A DNA stretch of 64,000 nt from the NCBI GenBank assembly GCA_022925895.1, contig JAKSYS010000222.1:1-64000 (forward strand), written 5' to 3'. How positions within the stretch are numbered: position 1 is the first letter of the stretch; every line of letters begins with the position of its first letter. The position numbers and the translations under genes are program-made. This stretch comes from Fragilaria crotonensis (taxonomy: Eukaryota; Bacillariophyta; Fragilariophyceae; Fragilariales; Fragilariaceae). Positions 3,147-16,100 of this stretch are shown in pieces. Under the pieces are notes generated by a model. The model was not told the origin of the DNA and did not search any database. It saw only the letters and a list, made by a program, of their open reading frames with translations.

Positions 3147-6100
3147 TCACCCAAGATCCATACGAATTCGTCGCATCTTTGGCGTCAACGATGATCTAGA
3201 GATCAGCAGCATAACTGCCACCGCCACGAGGCACGTCAGAAGATGCTGTTCTAAACACCAGAATGCTCCAAATACAACCACACCAGGAATTATGACCATC
3301 GCCATCACAACAGCATTCTGTTGCACCAACCAAGTACCAAATTGCAAAGGACCTGCCACCCAGACCGAATAGCCCTCCTCCGTATATCGCTCCGTGGTAA
3401 CTCCAAATCGGTATGCGAGTCGGTGTGGCGCTTCAAAGGCATGAAGCAACCAATGATGAGTTAATGGGGTGCGCAGATTTTCGCCGAGAAGCAAATACTC
3501 AGATGACGGCTGTAGGCTGACGTAGGATGAGGCCACGATACCATTCACAACAATACTTCCAGAGAGGGTGAAAGGGGCATACACTCCTCGACGGTCGACA
3601 GTTGTGATGCTCCGGATGGTTGTGAGCTCACCATCTGACAGGAGCAGACCGTCGCCCTCCTTGAGAATACCTGCAGGAACAGCGTGGCCTTTGCTGACAA
3701 AGACCATGTGATTAGGTGAGATCTCCAGAGGGCGACCTTGGTTAGTCTCAATCTGCAAATACGTCGACTTGATAGAGTCGTGCCTATGCCCGAACGAATA
3801 AACTGGTTCGTAAGTCCCAGACCCAGTGAGAACCCGATCGCCAACGACAAGGTCTTTCATCAGTATCTTTCCCTTGCTATCGGTCACAACTTCCGATTCC
3901 CCAGAGAAACAAGGCTCCTCCCGCGGTTCTTGTGGTGTTAAACTTGGTTGCTCAGTGGGAACGACACTTTCGCTTGGTTGACCACTTGGAGAAACACTTT
4001 TGCTTGGCTTGAAGCTCTCGCTTGGCTGAGCACTTAGAGAAGGACTAGTACTTGGAGCGAAGGACACTTCGCACGAGGTCCAATCGATGGTGACTTGACG
4101 TCGGCATCGCCATCATATCCAAAAACATAAACCTGATAGGCGTTGCTGGTTTCATCGTTGAATGTTAAAAGCTCGTTTCCGGGTACTGAGGTAGTACTTC
4201 CCGAAAACGTGATCGAGTCACCACGCCATGCAAATGTCTCCGGATCTGAAGGTAAAGATAGAAAATCGTCGCCCGATTTAAGATACAGATCCATATCGAC
4301 ATTGCTAGTGGCTGTGGTAAGCTTTACCTGTACACCTGACAAGCCGGCTCGGACATGACCAACAAAGGATAACTCTCCATCTTGAATTCGTTTCTCGAAG
4401 CTCACAATCCCATCGCAGAATGCGCTTGGTTGAGAACTAGGAGACACACTTGTGCTTGGCGTAAGGCTCTCGCTTGGTTTAGAACTGGGAGACACACTTG
4501 TGCTTGGCGTAAGGCTCTCGCTTGGCGGAGCACTAAGTGAAGGACTTGCACTTGGCTTGAGGCTCTCACTTGGCGGAGCACTAAGAGAAGGACTAGCACT
4601 TGGAGCGAAGGACACTTCGCACGAGGTCCAATCGATGGTGACTTTGACGTCGGCATCGCCATCATATCCAAAAACATAAACCTGATAGGCGTTGCTGGTT
4701 TCATTGTTGAATACTAAAAGCTCGTTTCCGGGTACTGAGGAATTACTTCCCGAAAACGTGATCGAGTCACCACGCCATGTAAATGTCTCCGGATCAGATG
4801 GTAAAGACACAACATAGTCGCCCGATGTAAGATACAGATTCACATCGACGTCGCTGGTGGCTGTGGTCAGCTCTACTTCCACACCTGACAAGCCGGCTCG
4901 AATATGACCAACCAGGATAAAATCTCCATTTTGAATTCGTTTATCGAAGCTCACAATCCCATCGCAGAATGCGCTTGGTTGAGAACTTGGAGACGCACTT
5001 GTGCTTGGCTTAATGCTCTGGCTTGGTTGAGCACTTGGCGGAGAACTTGGCTTTGCACTAGGAGAAACACTCTCGCTCGGTGTAGAACTTGGCGGAGCAC
5101 TAGCACTTGGAGCCGAGCTCAATTGACACCCGGTCCAAGTTATGCTGATTTTGACGTCAGATCCGCCGTCATATCCATAAGCATAAACCTGATAAGCGTT
5201 GATGGTTTCATTGTTGAATATTAAAAACTCGTTTCCGCGTATTGGGGGAAAATTTCCCGAATACGTGATCAAGTCACCATTCCATGCAAATGTCACCGGC
5301 ATGGTGAAAGTAGATAAAGGTAGAATAGCGCCGCTCGATGTAAGATTCAGATCCACATCGACGCCGATAGTGGCTGTGGTCATTATTATCTCCACACCTG
5401 ACAAGCCGGGTCGAATTTCACCAAAGAAGGAATACTCTCCCTTTTCAATTCGTTTCTCAAAGCTACCACTTCCATCGCAGAATGCGCTTGGTTGAGAACT
5501 GGGAGACACACTTGTGCTTGGCTTAAAGCTCTCGCTTGGTTGAGCACTTGGCGGAGAACTTGGCTTCGCACTAGGAGAAAGACTCTCGCTCGGCTTAGCA
5601 CTTGGCACAGCACTAGCACTTGGAGCGGAGGATAATTCACACAAGGCCCAATCGATGGTGACTTTGACGTCGGCTTCGCCGTCATATCCATAAACATAAA
5701 CCTGATAGGCGTTGCTGGTTTCATCGTTGAATGTTAAAAGCTCGTTTCCGGGAACTGAGGTATTACTTCCCGAAAACGTGATCGAGTCACCACGCCACGT
5801 AAATGTCTCCGGATCAGAAGGTAAAGATAGAAAATCACCGCCTGATTTCAGATATAGATCCATATCGACGTCGCTAGCGGCTGTGGTCAGCTGTACCTTC
5901 ACACCTGACAAGCCGGCTCGAATATCACCAACAAGGGATAACTCTCCATTTTGAATTCGTTTCTCAAAGCTCACAATCCCATCGCACAATCCCTTTGGTT
6001 TAGAACTGGGAGACACACTTGTGCTTGGCTTAAGACTCTCGCTTGGTTTAGAACTGGGAGACACACTTGTGCTTGGCGTAAGGCTCTCGCTTGGCGGAGC

Positions 6101-8665
6101 ACTAAGTGAAGGACTTGCACTTGGCTTGAGGCTCTCACTTGGCGGAGCACTAAGAGAAGGACTAGCACTTGGAGTGAAGGCCGCTTCACACAAGGGCCAA
6201 CTGACGGTGACTTTGACGTCGGCATCGCCATCATATCCATAAACATAAACCTGATAGGCGTTGCTGGTTTCATTGTTGAATACTAAAAGCTCGTTTCCGG
6301 GTACTGAGGTATTACTTCCCGAAAACGTGATCGAGTCACCACGCCATGTAAATGTCTCCGGATCAGATGGTAAAGACACAACATAGTCGCCCGATGTAAG
6401 ATACAGATTCACATCGACGTCGCTGGTGGCTGTGGTCAGCTCTACTTCCACACCTGACAAGCCGGGTCGAATATGACCAACCAGGATAAAATCTCCATTT
6501 TGAATTCGTTTCTCGAAGCTACTACTTCCATCGCAGAATGCGCTTGGTTGAGAACTTGGAGACGCACTTGTGCTTGGCTTAATGCTCTGGCTTGGTTGAG
6601 CCGAAGAACTTGGCTTTGCACTAGGCGAAATGCTCTCGCTCGGTGTAGAACTTGGCGTAGCACTAGAACTCGGAGCCGAGCTCGTTTGACACCCGGGCCA
6701 AGTAATGGTGACTGTGACGTCACCTTCATCGTACCATCCATAAACATAAACCTGATAGGTATTGTTGGTTACATCATTGAATATAACGAACTCTTCTCCT
6801 GTGGGGCCACCAAAGTATTCCGGATACACTCCAGAATACGTGATCGAGTCACCATTCCATGTTTTGGTCTGCTCACCGTATCCATCGTATTGTTCACCTC
6901 TAAATACGCCGACTCCAGCTTTAACGACCCAGGTGCCATTCGATCGGAGATTTAGATCAATATCCGCATCCATAGTGCTAGTAGCAGTGGTCATAAGTAT
7001 CTCCACACCTAATAAGCCGGCTCGAATTTCCGCTACCAGGGATAACTGTCTAAGTCCAACTCGTCTATCGAAGCTACCACTTCCATCGCAGAAACTGCTT
7101 GGTTGAGCAGTTGGCGCCGCACTCGGAGCCTTTGTCGGAGAGGCGGTGGGAGAGTCGGTGGGAACCGTCGTGGGAGAGGCAGTGGGAGCCGTCGTGGGAG
7201 AGGCGGTGGGATCCGTAGCGGGAGAGGCAGTGGGAGCCGTCGTGGGAAAGCCTGTGGGCGCCGTCGTGGGAAAGCCTGTGGGAGCCGTCGTGGGAGAGGC
7301 AGTGGGAGAGGCAGTGGGAGAGTCGGTGGGAGAGTCGGTGGGAGAGGCGGTGGGAGAGGCGGTGGGAGAGGCGGTGGGAGAGGCGGTGGGAGAGGCGGTG
7401 GGAGAGTCGGTGGGAGAGTCGGTGGGAGAGGCGGTGGGAGAGGCGGTGGGAGAGGCGGTGGGAGAGGCGGTGGGAGAGGCGGTGGGAGAGGCGGTGGGAG
7501 AGGCGGTGGGAGAGGCGGTGGGAGAGGCGGTGGAGAGGCGGTGGAGAGTCGGTGGGAGAGGCGGTGAGAGGCGGTGGGAGAGGCGGTGGGAGAGGCGGTG
7601 GGAGAGGCGGTGGGAGAGGCGGTGGAGAGAGGCGTGGAGAGGCGGTGGGAGAGTCGGTGGGAGAGGCGGTGGGAGGCGGTGGGAGAGGCGGTGGAGAGGC
7701 GGGGGAGAGGCGGTGGGAGAGGCGGTGGGAGAGGCGGTGGGAGAGTCGGTGGGAGAGTCGGTGGGAGAGGCGGTGGGAGAGTCGGTGGGAGAGGCGGTGG
7801 GAGAGGCGGTGGGAGAGTCGGTGGGAGAGTCGGTGGGAGAGTCGGTGGGAGAGGCGGTGGGAGAGGCGGTGGGAGAGGCGGTGGGAGAGTCGGTGGGAGA
7901 GGCGGTGGGAGAGGCGGTGGGAGAGGCGGTGGGAGAGGCGGTGGGAGAGGCGGTGGGAGAGGCGGTGGGAGCCGTCGTGGGAAAGCCTGTGGGAGCCGTC
8001 GTGGGAGAGGCAGTGGGAGAGCCGGTGGGAGAGTCGGTGGGAACCGTCGTGGGAAAGCCTGTGGGAGCCGTCGTGGGAGAGGCAGTCGGAGAGGCAGTGG
8101 GAGAGGCAGTCGGAGAGGCAGTCGGAGAGGCAGTGAGAGAGGCAGCGGGAGAGGCAGTTGGAGAGGCAGTTGGAGAGGCAGTGGGAGTGGCAGTGGGAGT
8201 GGCAGTTGGAGAGGCAGTGAGAGAGGCAGCGGGAGAGGCAGTGGGAGAGGCAGTTGGAGGGGCAGTGGGAGTGGCAGTTGGAGAGGCAGTGAGAGAGGCA
8301 GCGGGAGAGGCAGTGGGAGAGGCAGTTGGAGGGGCAGTGGGAGAGGCAGTGAGAGAGGCAGTGGGAGAGCCGGTGGGAGAGGCAGTGGGAGAGCCGGTGG
8401 GAGAGCCGGGAGCCTTCGTGGGAGCCTTGGTCGGAGCCTTTGTCGGAGCCTTTGTCGGAGCCTTGGTCGGAGCCTTGGTCGGAGCCTTGGTCGGAGCCTT
8501 GGTCGGAGCCTTGGTCGGAGCCTTGGTCGGAGCCTTTGTCGCAGCCTTTTTCGGAGGCTTGGTAACACGGTTCTGATTTCTCATGAGGCGACGCTCTTGA
8601 GCCATTGACTGGCCAATCGACGAAGCAACAAGGATAACAAGAAGAACGTTAGCGGAGGGGATCAT
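3147..8665 (-). CDS. Giant secreted modular protein with PPC-like domains and a Hedgehog-type Hint domain
   Basis: ATG at 8665 begins a signal peptide (MIPSANVLLVILVASSIGQS), then TKAP repeats, a long SPTA/SPTD linker, and six about 115-residue beta-sandwich domains. These start CDG and end YQVYVYGYDGDADVKVT..W..C, and resemble pre-peptidase C-terminal (PPC) domains. PSxxPS linkers separate them. After the sixth domain the frame shifts by one base near 4092-4096: sister repeats read TGACTTTGACG and this copy TGACTTGACG. In the new frame follow more linkers and a Hint domain starting CFSGESEV (Cys codon 3909-3911). It continues with DLVVGDRVLTG, LEISPNHMVFV and VNGIVASSYV, and then two hydrophobic segments. 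Hint domains self-cleave at the leading Cys; Hedgehog uses this to release a sterol-linked N-part. I treat both frames as one gene; the shift is probably a consensus error. Low-complexity frame slips also occur at about 7530-7710. Confidence 0.8.
7134..8555 (-). repeat. Low-complexity coding repeat (SPTA/SPTD and TKAP arrays)
   Basis: A 12-nt unit (GTGGGAGAGGCG on plus) repeats for over 1 kb and encodes SPTA or SPTD on minus; a second 12-nt unit (GGAGCCTTGGTC) encodes TKAP. Between about 7530 and 7710 several units have lost one or two G, so the protein slips from SPTASP to HRLS-type and PPLPPTLP-type frames and back. The array also creates long empty frames on both strands, which are by-products. 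O-glycosylated Thr/Ser-Pro stalks are the usual reading of such linkers in diatom wall proteins (inference). Confidence 0.85.
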
Positions 8666-9657: not shown

Positions 9658-11352
9658 ATGAAGTTTGCATTCGCACCGTTGCTTGTGGTCGCCCTCTTGG
9701 GGCTCAAGACTGTCGTGCCAGTCCATGGTCAGCAGAGGCAGCCCTTCGACGACAGCCGAAAGCCCGTCCATAAAGCCTTCAACAAAATAGACGCCACCGG
9801 AGGATTTGAACAGGACAAGTACATCGTAGGATACAAGAACCAATTGGGGCTTGAAACGGTTAGGTCCGAATCCGGAGCCGTCCGCCTCAACTTACCATAC
9901 GTCAAGGCTGTCGCAGCAACAATGACCCGGAGCCAAGCCGAGGCCCTCAAACTTAACCCGAACATTGCGTATGTTGAGTACGACTACAAGCTCTATCCCA
10001 TCGGCCTTCGCGGTGGCGGTACTAACTCCGTCCCATCGTTGCCGCATCATAGGAGGCTCGCCGAGGTCAAACCATATGGCATTGGGATGGTCCAAGCTGA
10101 CCAGCTATCCTTCAATACCACGTCCCCTGTCAAAGTTTGCATTATCGACACTGGCTACAACTTTGGCCACGAAGACCTTCCCACAAGCGGTGTCAAGGGC
10201 TGGTCTGATGTTGGAGCAGGTATCTGGTCCAAAGATGGGTATGGCCATGGCACGCATGTCGCTGGGACTATCGCTGCTATCGGTAATAATGGTAAGGGCG
10301 TCATCGGCGTTAGTCCTGGCGTTAAGCTCCACATCGCGCGGGTGTTTGATGATGATGCTGGGTGGGCGTACTCGTCCGATCTTGTTGGAGCTCTGAATTC
10401 TTGCAGAGCTGCGGGTGCCAACATCGTCAGCATGAGCATTGGGAGGGGTGGTCCCCCAAGCATTACTGAAGCAAATGCCTTCGATGCTCTGAGCAAGGCG
10501 GGCATGCTCTCAGTTGCAGCCGCCGGGAATGACGGAGACTACTTCTACTCTTATCCCGCTTCGTACAGCTCCGTCGTTTCCGTTGCCGCCATTGACTCAA
10601 GCAAGACTGTCGCTTACTTTTCCCAGTATAACGATCAGGTGGATTTGGCGGCTCCGGGTGTCGATGTCCGCTCGACCGTGCCAATGGGCATGGGGTTGGC
10701 GGAAGCATCGTTAGTCGTTGGCGCGACAGGTTACACGGTCACGACAATCTTGGGCTCTGAGATCAGGACAGCCACCGGTCCTCTGTTCGTATGCAGCCTA
10801 GGAGACTGTGAAGGTGCTTCCGGCAAAGTTTGCCTCATCAAGCGTGAGGATAGTTATTTGGATTCGAAGGTCGACGAATGCGCGTTTTGGGATGGCATTG
10901 CTGTCATCATCTACAATAATCAAGCCGGTGAATTTGTTGGTGAACTTTATTACTACGCCAGTATCCCTGTTGTCAGCACGTCCGACACAGATGGCGCAGC
11001 ACTGTTGAATATGGCGGGCACATCAGCCACTATTTCTTTTTCACCGAGTAATTATGACAGCTACAGTGGCACTTCCATGGCGACGCCACACGTGTCTGGT
11101 GTGGCGGCTCTGGTCTGGAGCCGCTACCCTGCCTGCACCAAAGACAACATCCTTAATGCCCTTTTCGTCACTGCGATGGACCTGGGTACAAAAGGGAGGG
11201 ACGACTTTTATGGTCACGGCCTCGTCCAAGCCAAGGCGGCCTCTGACTTCTTGTCAAAGGGCTGCTGTACTGCAAGAGGTGGACCATGTAGGGTTGGCTT
11301 AAACTGCTGCAGTGGTACCTGCCAAGGAGGAAACAAGCCGACTTGCAAGTAG
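9658..11352 (+). CDS. Secreted subtilisin-like serine protease (S8) with PA insert and Cys-rich tail
   Basis: 564 residues, ATG at 9658, single exon. Residues 1-24 are a signal peptide ending VPVHG. Residues about 50-115 look like an inhibitor I9 propeptide (DKYIVGYK, LNPNIAYVEYD). The catalytic domain has all key residues: Asp164 in CIIDTGYNF, His197 in GHGTHVAGT, oxyanion Asn291 in AAAGND, and Ser473 in GTSMATPHVSG. Residues about 355-450 form a PA-type insert (GKVCLIKRED, CAFWDGIAVIIYNN, IPVVST) that typically guides substrate access. The last 30 residues are a Cys-rich module (CC, C, CC, C, C) resembling a cystine-knot fold. A complete propeptide and triad imply an active extracellular endopeptidase. 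An AATAAA-like signal follows near 11410. It is divergently placed from the Hint-domain gene. Confidence 0.93.
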   Translation: MKFAFAPLLVVALLGLKTVVPVHGQQRQPFDDSRKPVHKAFNKIDATGGFEQDKYIVGYKNQLGLETVRSESGAVRLNLPYVKAVAATMTRSQAEALKLNPNIAYVEYDYKLYPIGLRGGGTNSVPSLPHHRRLAEVKPYGIGMVQADQLSFNTTSPVKVCIIDTGYNFGHEDLPTSGVKGWSDVGAGIWSKDGYGHGTHVAGTIAAIGNNGKGVIGVSPGVKLHIARVFDDDAGWAYSSDLVGALNSCRAAGANIVSMSIGRGGPPSITEANAFDALSKAGMLSVAAAGNDGDYFYSYPASYSSVVSVAAIDSSKTVAYFSQYNDQVDLAAPGVDVRSTVPMGMGLAEASLVVGATGYTVTTILGSEIRTATGPLFVCSLGDCEGASGKVCLIKREDSYLDSKVDECAFWDGIAVIIYNNQAGEFVGELYYYASIPVVSTSDTDGAALLNMAGTSATISFSPSNYDSYSGTSMATPHVSGVAALVWSRYPACTKDNILNALFVTAMDLGTKGRDDFYGHGLVQAKAASDFLSKGCCTARGGPCRVGLNCCSGTCQGGNKPTCK

Positions 11353-13100: not shown

Positions 13101-16100
13101 TCACTTAATACTCTCCACCGCGACCGTGCTTCCGACCTTGTGGCAAGGCTCGCCGTATCCAATTTCATGCAAGATATGAGGAACGGCCAACGGATACTGT
13201 CCATGCGTGGGTGCCAAATGTGAGACCTCATAATTCTCAACACCTTCAATGTCTGGAATTCCATGAACTCCGCAGGTTCTACTGACGCCGTTCCAACAAC
13301 GAATATTAATCATGTAACTCAAAATCCAATCAGATTTGTTGTGGCAATTGATTAAGCGACCACCCACTAGCTCACGAACTGAGATCCATTCCTTTGCGAC
13401 CATCAGCATGGGCATGCCAATCAGAACAACATCCTCCACAATGCTCGCAGGTTCTCTCTTGTACACGACGCTGGCTTCTTGTTTCTTTTGGCGCATTCGT
13501 CGTCGACGCGCGATCCAACTTGTTTTCTTCTTTGCGCTACCGATTGTTTCCTCCTCGTCTTCCTCGTCTTCATCGTCAGGAACAACGGCGTCCTTGGCCT
13601 TTGTGGGACGCTGTTGCTCTTCCCATACGGCTTGATGTCGGATCAATTCCAAAAGACAGCTGAATATGACTCGAGCACCAAAGGAATAACCCACCAATGA
13701 CACCGGCCGATGTTCGTCACTCTCGAGCAAACACCGGGCCAGTTCGAGTCCTGCCTTGTCGGATCGAAACGAAATCAATTGGTAGGGATCGTCAATGACA
13801 CCTGTTGCAGTCGACAGAGCGGAGGGGAGGGCAATGGCAGCGCCCACAGAACCGTGCAACACTGCTCGTTTCAAAACTTCTCTTGACAATTGACTGCTCA
13901 CTTCCAACACCAACACTTCCACGACCTTGCACAATTTCAATAAAAAGGGGGTTTCCCAAGTGATCGTGTACATTTCACCACTGTAGTTGGCCTCCCAATC
14001 CCACACCATGAGGGTCTTTTGTTGCGTGGCGGGTTTGGCACTTTTGGAGTTGGGATCAGCGGAATCACTTTCAGATTCGCGTTCGCTTTCCTCGATCACT
14101 TTGCTATCGAGGGGTTGACTCGCTTTGTTCGCCGTCGATCGAATCCATTCTACCACGCTCATCTATCATTTCACCTTTTTGTTCCAAAACAGTATTCGCC
14201 TTGCGATTGTCAGACTCGTTGGTCGCGTCGACAGGGAATTCGCTCGTTGGGACATCCGCAGTTGCGTTCGTATTGTCAGTCGAGGATTCCGAGCTAACGT
14301 CCACAGTCGTTTCGTGCGTCGCACAATCCTCCTTTCTCATTTCTTCATTGGAATCAAAAGAGTCCTCCACTGATTTTGGAGCATTGTTAAGATTCGAATT
14401 TCGATTTGAAGAATGGCAGCCATTTCCAGATTCTTGCATGGCTTCCAATGTTTCCAAATTCATCTGTGCAAACATTTCAGCATTCATGCGTTCCATTTGT
14501 TGCAACATGGTATTAGCCTCATAGATTCGTTCCATTTCCTTGGCATGATCTTTCAAATTGGAGGCCACAAATGCTGGAATCGTCTCAGTGGTCATTTCGT
14601 CTGGAAATAACTGTTCCGGTGTCTTTTCAAACGGAACCAAGTGATTGGGATCATAATCGTACTTTTGTTTCAATCGTTCCCACAAATCAGCTTCCTGACC
14701 CTTGTTGGATTTTAGTAAAATTTTGGCAAATCGTATTTTATCTGGAGCATGGACAGCAAAGAATCGTTGCAAGAGTTCCAAATAATCATCACTGGGTGGA
14801 TCGTCGGCATGCACTCCAAAGGGTGTTTGAAAGTCTTGTTTGGATCGGAGCCACCCACTAACGCACACGGTGGCATGCAAACCACGAATTGTTGGATCAG
14901 CATTTGGTGTGGCTGCTGCTGCTTGCTGTTTTTGTTTTCTCTCGTCTTGACTCGCAGTGTGAATTCCCGTCTCCTTCCGTATCCTCCATTCACTCAATCC
15001 ATCGGTTCGTCGTTTCATTTTGTAGGCAGTCAATCCACCTCCGACGACACCAAACATACTGGCCAACGCCGCTGTCGATGTCAAGGTGACGGCAATCGCA
15101 CCAGCCGTGTGGGTGGCAACACAGAGAGCCGAAACGGCAGCCGCGAGGGCAGGTGCAGCCAATCCTCCCGTCACGGCAAACAATCCACCCACTACCAGTG
15201 TGACGGATGATATTTGTAGACTGCGAATAATGACTTGTTTCTTATTGGGAGAGGCTCTTGTGGCAGAAGGATTTTTAGATGCAGCAGCTGCAGCTTCGGC
15301 CGCTTGTTGTTGCTGTTGTTGGAGCTGCAATTCGTTGGCAATCAATACATGAAGAATGTCTGTGGCAATCGTCTTTTCCAATAATTCAAATCGTTCCTTG
15401 GCAATTTGAGTTGGTGTCAATGGGAGAGTAATGGCCGAATTGAACAACAATTCTTCCTCATCGTCGTCATCATTCGTAGTATTAGTACTTGATGAAGCCG
15501 TTCCTGCTGTTGTTGTTGGATCGGTTGCCTTGACATGTTCCTTGGTGATGCTGTAAAGTGAACGGGCAGGTGACACCTCTGGTAGGGGTTCATCACGATA
15601 TGTATCTTGAAGGATTGACGAGCATGCCGTCTTGATGACATTACGGATCCTGGCATCGTAATTTCCCTTGGAAAGTAGCAAGATATTGGAAAGCAATAGG
15701 GATATGCATCCAATGGGGTCTTGAATGCGAGTTGTACTAGTCGAAGTAGTTGATTCTCCAATGGTATCGTCCTTTGGAGAATTGTTGTCGTATGGTACAG
15801 GGTCATTTGTTGTCATGGAAGCAATGGCGACTGCTTCATGCAAATCGGCCAGCGGCAACAACAAGGAGGCTGATAGAATGGGCAAGAGTTCCATCCGCAT
15901 GTAATCAATTTGTCGTCCACGCAATCCCACCGTCGAGGCTTCGGGATACTGATCCTTCATAACACGTCCACGCCAATTGGTGGGACGTGTATCTGGCAAG
16001 TATTGCAAGGAACGGATCCGTCCATGAACGATGCGTTCCAATTCATGATAGAGAAGTAGACGATCCTGTTTCGATGGTAATTCCATTAATGTAGTTGTTT

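Follow-up and report, generated by a model that had tools for sequence, protein, structure and literature searches.

A Hog protein with a Hedgehog-class Hint domain and a hydrophobic tail in the diatom Fragilaria crotonensis

A split minus-strand gene with a Hint domain

Here we report the analysis of a gene for a Hint-domain protein in the diatom Fragilaria crotonensis, located on a 64,000-nucleotide stretch of DNA (contig JAKSYS010000222.1 of assembly GCA_022925895.1, positions 1 to 64,000; hereafter the window). On the minus strand, positions 3147-8665 hold one long gene split over two overlapping frames, the upstream one covering 4034-8665 and the downstream one open from 4112 to 3150, with its stop codon at 3147-3149. 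The upstream frame encodes a hydrophobic signal-like start, followed by TKAP and SPTA-type repeats and by six repeated domains with Ser/Pro linkers between them. The downstream frame continues with a Ser/Pro linker and the Hint domain; a recognition-type region comes next and is followed by a pair of hydrophobic segments. The product looks like a surface protein of the diatom. An earlier sequence-only reading of the locus had placed a repeat-rich ectodomain N-terminal to a Hedgehog-class Hint domain, and this arrangement is borne out, with an ectodomain that is probably secreted.

The protein encoded at 3147-4067 (minus strand; P0001) matched the Pfam Hint family PF01079 with an E-value of 9.7e-28 (97.6 bits, cut-off 29.7) and Hint_2 with 1.4e-7, which answers the profile search that the sequence-only reading had named as its check. 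In a phmmer search of PDB, the same protein matched the Hedgehog chains 6tyy (5.2e-11), 6td6 (7.7e-10) and 1at0 (1.1e-9), as well as Sonic hedgehog 7e2i (2.1e-8), and in its alignment with Hedgehog the blocks CFSGES, DLVVGDRVL, SPNHMVFV and VYAPFTLSGSIVVNGIVASSYV are collinear. The Pfam match and the match to the fly Hedgehog structure uphold the earlier claim of a Hint domain with blocks in the order of the Hedgehog C-terminal domain. Judging by this alignment, the ordered Hedgehog-like blocks in P0001 are not due to chance. A profile built from the family described below recovered Hedgehog 6tyy at 1.8e-21, and its first non-Hedgehog chain (MJ0781) at 0.0005.

By its sequence features, the window protein is classed as a Hog protein and not as Hedgehog. 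It departs from Hedgehog proper in having His at the Asp46/303 position and Ser in place of the motif-J Cys, and it lacks a match to the Hedge domain: PF01085 hit neither P0001 nor P0002, even with E-values up to 1 allowed. The whole genome gave no match either, but the control genomes were equally blank, and this second search therefore does not show absence. An intein was also rejected, since Pfam Intein_splicing scored 0.068 (13.4 bits against a cut-off of 35.8), no splice junction was seen by eye, and motif J runs on into the recognition region and hydrophobic tail.

The six repeats of the N-terminal half are genuine. A genome search with one of them returned six matches, all six inside this same gene. 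Their naming as PPC-like domains fared less well: the Pfam PPC score is E 0.017 (16.4 bits, cut-off 25.9), and a PDB search with the six-repeat profile yielded no PPC structure and a single unrelated match at E 0.37, which leaves the PPC label weak. Read by eye, the PT repeats of P0002 run out of frame and then return to it.

Catalytic residues, recognition-like region and tail in the genomic family

The Pfam Hint profile gave 32 matches in the 62.1 Mb genome, which correspond to 29 loci because three loci are each split into two matches. A genome search with the window protein gave 33 matches at the same 29 loci. The number of distinct Hint genes is below 29, because several loci form near-identical pairs. 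We aligned family members from 18 of the loci (numbered here with an L) and left out 11, namely L012, whose Hint domain is identical to that of L010, and L016, L026, L027, L028 and L030-L035, which are broken, partial or interrupted by an in-frame stop. In addition, viral contigs were scanned with the family alignment; the pattern occurred in 30 stretches, and tblastn found no relatives among them.

Cys1 and both the Ser and the His of the SxxH motif are present in all 18 aligned members. The position of the Hedgehog general base (Asp46/303) is occupied by His in 17 members, including the window protein, and by Tyr in L014, and in none by Asp; this replacement had gone unmentioned in the sequence-only reading. 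Simple patterns applied to the unjoined frames of all 29 loci extended the picture. The CF(A/P/S)(G/S) block was found in 29 of 29, the Asp46/303 position was His in 26, Tyr in one and unmatched in two (L028 and L031), and the SxxH Ser was present in 27, with Thr in one near-identical pair (L030 and L032).

The sequence following ASSYV includes HHWLLHAFEAPHRLA, and it carries a His, a Pro at +5 and an Arg at +7, which is the published spacing of helix 1 of the sterol-recognition region (SRR). In human SHH, this helix contains H374, P379, R381 and L382 (PMC7906309, PMC7242414, in the portions available), and H165, P170, R172 and L173 of the window protein (row 1 of the alignment) are equally spaced. 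Cholesterolysis by human SHH is abolished by the H374A and R381A changes, whereas with P379A the share of product associated with cells was not reduced (PMC7242414). Among the aligned members, the Arg of this His-Pro-Arg (HPR) motif is kept in 18, the Pro in 17 and the His in 16. The complete H-x4-P-x-R-hydrophobic motif is found in 15 of 18, with Val for Pro in L010 and Arg for His in both L019 genes. Taken on its own, the motif occurred in 107 sequences when the window tail was shuffled 20000 times. Built from the post-Hint region alone, a profile scored 9.8 bits against the fly SRR, a value reached by none of 2000 shuffles (best 8.2), and it paired fly SQSLAHWGLAPMRLL with the HPR segment of the family. 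The whole-family profile aligned fly Hedgehog to residue 464, into SRR helix 2, at 3.5e-21; its match in the middle of the region is loose and does not fall on the HPR motif. In L009, L014, L018, L020 and L022, the recognition region takes a second form (SPLRLASLGISPWFGT and alike), different from the window form PHRL...ETY..G.S.W; this second form perhaps points to another adduct.

The two hydrophobic segments that had been noticed after the Hint domain are confirmed by hydropathy, with 19-residue Kyte-Doolittle peaks of 2.44 and 2.12. Two peaks of at least 1.6 lie beyond the recognition region in 13 of the 18 members, and a single tail peak was found in L013, L017, L019, L025 and L029. L025 terminates early, and the end of L019 is unlike that of the closely related L019b, perhaps owing to a further slip in frame. 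The sequence-only reading had taken this tail to stand in place of a sterol-recognition region. That idea is ruled out by the HPR spacing, by the fly SRR profile match, and by the position of the hydrophobic segments after an SRR-related region, which sits between Hint and tail.

Ratios of nonsynonymous to synonymous substitution (dN/dS) were calculated from Nei-Gojobori counts for the window protein against L015 and for nine other pairs. Window against L015, the ratio was 0.14 in the Hint domain, 0.19 in the post-Hint region and 0.26 in the tail, all of them rough since dS exceeded 1. In the other pairs, Hint ratios were 0.15-0.26 in eight and saturated in one; post-Hint ratios were 0.11-0.21 in four and saturated in two, the remainder being given below; and tail ratios were 0.17-0.76 in seven and saturated in two. 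These values support purifying selection on the window protein. With ratios that are low across pairs, as against the varying ones of the other parts, the Hint domain is the part under firm constraint.

Ectodomains were surveyed by Pfam on 19 paralogue proteins, a procedure that exons outside the open frame would escape. PT repeats were found in L009, L020 and L022, PBP_like_2 in L011, L023 and L024, Peptidase_M43 in L021 and L025, and in L032 a partial trypsin domain that covers the final 53 model positions. Ten of the 19 (L012, both L019 genes, L013, L014, L015, L017, L018, L029 and L033) had no named ectodomain above the cut-off.

Table 1. Features of the Hint-domain gene in the window
Feature	Position	Strand	Basis
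N-terminal hydrophobic segment MIPSANVLLVILVASSIGQSMA, likely signal peptide	8600..8665	-	translation of 4034-8665 read by eye
TKAP and SPTA/SPTD repeats (Pfam PT)	7094..8599	-	Pfam PT 7.8e-26 on P0002; middle partly out of frame
Six repeated ectodomains, Ser/Pro-linked; PPC label weak	4091..7093	-	alignment; genome search; Pfam PPC 0.017
Individual ectodomain repeats	6686-7093, 6185-6538, 5636-5989, 5123-5482, 4616-4969, 4091-4420	-	alignment
Frame break, AAG against AAAG in three other repeats	4089..4102	-	repeat comparison; assembly gap rate
Hint domain, Cys1 to ASSYV	3519..3911	-	Pfam; PDB; residue table
Hint key codons: Cys1; His at Asp46/303 position	3909-3911; 3786-3788	-	residue table
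Hint key codons: SxxH Ser; SxxH His; Ser at motif-J Cys	3717-3719; 3708-3710; 3525-3527	-	residue table
Adduct/sterol-recognition-like region	3315..3518	-	family profile; residue table
HPR motif HAFEAPHRL: His; Pro; Arg	3441-3443; 3426-3428; 3420-3422	-	residue table
Second segment of recognition-like region, GYSVW...GTWLV	within 3315..3518	-	family profile; residue table
Two hydrophobic segments and basic C-terminal end	3150..3314	-	hydropathy

Candidate mechanism and competing explanations

Domain identity, the pattern of catalytic residues, the kinship of the recognition region, the hydrophobic tail, constraint and family expansion can be read directly from the DNA, and from these we infer cleavage, the alcohol and compartment involved, what becomes of the pieces, and the topology. 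With moderate confidence, we propose that the C-terminal half is a membrane-held Hog cassette, which would cut before the Cys and pass the ectodomain to a sterol or a similar alcohol. Such a cassette would comprise the Hint domain and an adduct-recognition region, anchored in the membrane by the added hydrophobic pair. Once the protein has entered the secretory pathway, a thioester would arise at Cys1 of the Hint fold (Cys9 in alignment row 1), with assistance from the Ser and His of SxxH. The tail would keep the recognition region at the membrane, and this region would present a lipid alcohol, most likely a sterol, for attack on the thioester with His50 (alignment row 1) acting as the general base. 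The PT/repeat ectodomain would then depart, its new C-terminus bearing the lipid, while the piece made up of Hint and tail would remain.

Several observations weigh against this proposal. The motif-J Cys is found in none of the 18 aligned members, the position being Ser in 14, Asn in three and Thr in one, and Pro stands just before Cys1 in four members, the window protein included; Pro at the -1 position slows acyl shifts. Within the recognition region it is SRR helix 1 that matches at the level of sequence, and helix 2 is loose. The whole-family profile aligned Sonic hedgehog 7e2i just to residue 371, short of the HPR motif; the position of human Tyr435 in helix 2 holds Trp in 12 of the 18 members, Phe in one and Leu, Ile or Arg in five; and human SHH F377 is unmatched in register within the family. 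Some pairs show weak constraint on the recognition region, with post-Hint dN/dS of 0.54 for L018/L020, 0.76 for L018/L022 and 1.27 for L023/L024 (the last with very few changes). The C-terminal end is net positive in 17 of 18 members, which fits a luminal end after two full crossings badly. Finally, the genome gave no match to Patched in a search that disregarded introns, so that a Hedgehog-like receiver is not indicated.

The main competing explanation, which we consider rather unlikely, is autoproteolytic shedding without lipid, where the thioester is resolved by water or a small thiol and the ectodomain is simply released, the recognition region just shaping the fold or tying the domain to the membrane. 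Such an outcome is favoured by the presence of the thioester-forming residues, by the replacement of the general-base Asp and by the loose match of helix 2; in a chain that is already membrane-anchored, cutting by itself would also change the fate of the ectodomain. However, shedding is harder to reconcile with an HPR motif kept in 15 of 18 members, with its Arg in all of them, and with the constraint on the post-Hint region between the window and L015 (0.19), though L018/L022 stands at 0.76.

We regard as improbable a structural or dead Hint domain, which would not cut and would leave the protein whole as a membrane-anchored surface protein. The window protein has Pro ahead of Cys1 and has lost the motif-J Cys, which would suit this reading, but Cys1 and the SxxH His, needless for a mere fold, are kept throughout 18 divergent paralogues, and the Hint dN/dS of the window against L015 (0.14) likewise argues for a working domain.

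The frame break at about 4095 bears on the last explanation. Positions 4089-4102 read GACGTCAAGTC, as compared with GACGTCAAAGTC in three other repeats and GACGTCAAAATC in a fourth, the sixth having been missed by the search pattern, and past the break the ectodomain repeat carries on in the other frame (VTIDWTSCE). Gap counts between contigs, which pool coding and non-coding sequence, exceed mismatches in the closest different-contig pairs: 52 gap openings (39 single-base) against 11 mismatches over 9.9 kb in L009/L034, 29 (21 single-base) against eight over 5.1 kb in L030/L032, 41 (23 single-base) against 12 over 7.7 kb in L024/L033, and 20 (14 single-base) against 17 over 3.4 kb in L023/L026. 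More diverged pairs lack such an excess (L010/L012, 153 mismatches and 29 gaps; L009/L031, 173 and 55; L023/L024, 90 and three over 2.6 kb), as does L019/L016, a close pair within a single contig (11 mismatches and no gaps over 1.0 kb). The break is most likely a sequencing or assembly error, because one-base gaps outnumber substitutions in the closest contig pairs; the genome yielded no second copy of this locus by which the error could be proven. We consider it very improbable that the gene is a pseudogene whose Hint domain is never translated with the ectodomain: the break does stand in the window sequence, with no second copy to set against it and with gaps not dominant in L019/L016 or L023/L024, but gaps prevail in the four closest different-contig pairs, and the Hint side, for which alone dN/dS was computed in this respect, is constrained.

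As a separate observation, the assembly contains near-duplicate contigs (for example L009/L034, L030/L032 and L024/L033) whose differences are chiefly gaps, for the most part single-base ones, so that a frame break in this genome will often be a likely error.

Relation to known Hint systems and other genes

The diatom family shares with the autoprocessing domains of fly Hedgehog and human SHH the Hint sequence, Cys1, the His of TxxH and the HPR spacing of SRR helix 1. It differs from them by the lack of the Hedge signalling domain, by the added hydrophobic tail, and by the replacement of Thr with Ser, of Asp46/303 with His, and of the motif-J Cys with Ser, Asn or Thr. Asp303 serves fly Hedgehog as general base towards cholesterol, and a D303H variant is reported to retain structure, pKa and catalytic efficiency and to perform more than 200-fold better with coprostanol and more than 300-fold better with epicoprostanol (PMC9163320). 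This variant (D46H) is PDB 6tyy, the best PDB sequence match of the window protein. Both have His at the general-base position, engineered in the fly protein and natural in 17 of 18 diatom members.

Many protists and algae possess Hog proteins (PMC2362128), and several copies occur in some red algae, with 17 Hog genes in Cyanidioschyzon merolae (PMC2362128, PMC13353863). As in these proteins, where the N-terminus is often secreted and the motif-J Cys often replaced (PMC2362128, PMC13353863), the diatom Hint domain and recognition region follow a lineage-specific N-terminus, here probably a secreted one, and the motif-J Cys is replaced. The Ser at the Cys of the ASCYA motif, noted earlier as a departure, is thus present in the window protein, but it is not new: Burglin 2008 lists Ser in some alveolates, Ser, Thr or Asp in mosses and red algae, and further cases in the portion available (PMC2362128). 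Unlike protist and algal Hogs, the diatom family has the C-terminal hydrophobic pair, as well as ectodomains in which M43 peptidase, partial trypsin and PBP-superfamily domains can be recognised. Distinct other N-terminal domains of protist Hogs are named just for GmGIN1 and Hoglet in the available part of Burglin 2008 (PMC2362128), and kelch was added by a 2026 paper (PMC13353863, likewise in part). The count of His at Asp46/303 (17 of 18) covers the diatom family.

Large Hint (IPR001767) families are known from the diatoms Pleurosigma pacificum and Seminavis robusta, with counts of over 290 and, in S. robusta, of 112, against minimal numbers in the other diatoms compared (PMC12803021). The F. 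crotonensis family resembles them in being a large one, and the passages available from that report give counts alone, without anatomy or mechanism. Hint-domain proteins have also been noted in Seminavis sexual reproduction (cited in PMC3879662, seen in part). Protist and algal Hogs, the loss of the motif-J Cys and the diatom Hint expansions are therefore already known. The membrane tail, the fixed His and the peptidase and binding-protein fusions of diatom Hogs are apparently undescribed, as no account of them was found in the literature searched, which covered few subscription papers.

Covalent sterol attachment to proteins is described for animal Hedgehog alone in the literature covered (PMC7242414, in part). 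More tentatively than for the window protein itself, we suggest that diatoms may possess their own protein-sterylation system, in which one membrane-held Hog cassette is placed on many unrelated secreted proteins, peptidases and binding proteins included. The His would be a native general base suited to algal sterols, and each protein would be severed from the cassette and carry a C-terminal lipid for its place at the cell surface or in the wall. Since the genome bears Hog domains on a range of unlike proteins, the alga may process a whole group of its proteins by such cutting and lipid tagging. Outside animals, a family that combines recognisable enzyme cargos and its own hydrophobic anchor with a natural form of the engineered general-base change would open two questions to testing: which adducts Hog domains transferred before there was a Hedgehog, and whether the lipid tagging of surface enzymes in algae works in this manner.

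Other genes were noted in the course of the analysis. The genome gave 19 silicon-transporter matches, 18 of them above the cut-off, as would be expected of a diatom, and one locus (G000:C97:29749-33762) carries three silicon-transporter domains in a single open frame of 1456 residues. In the window, the plus strand encodes a long ankyrin-repeat protein at 134-1906 (Ank_2, 1.3e-94) and a subtilase at 9658-11352 (Peptidase_S8, 4.7e-51) with a PA domain and a Cys-rich end, and a DUF726 protein (7.3e-49) lies on the minus strand at 13101-14162. Long plus-strand open frames at 7103-8608, antisense to the PT repeats, are probably a by-product of the repeats.

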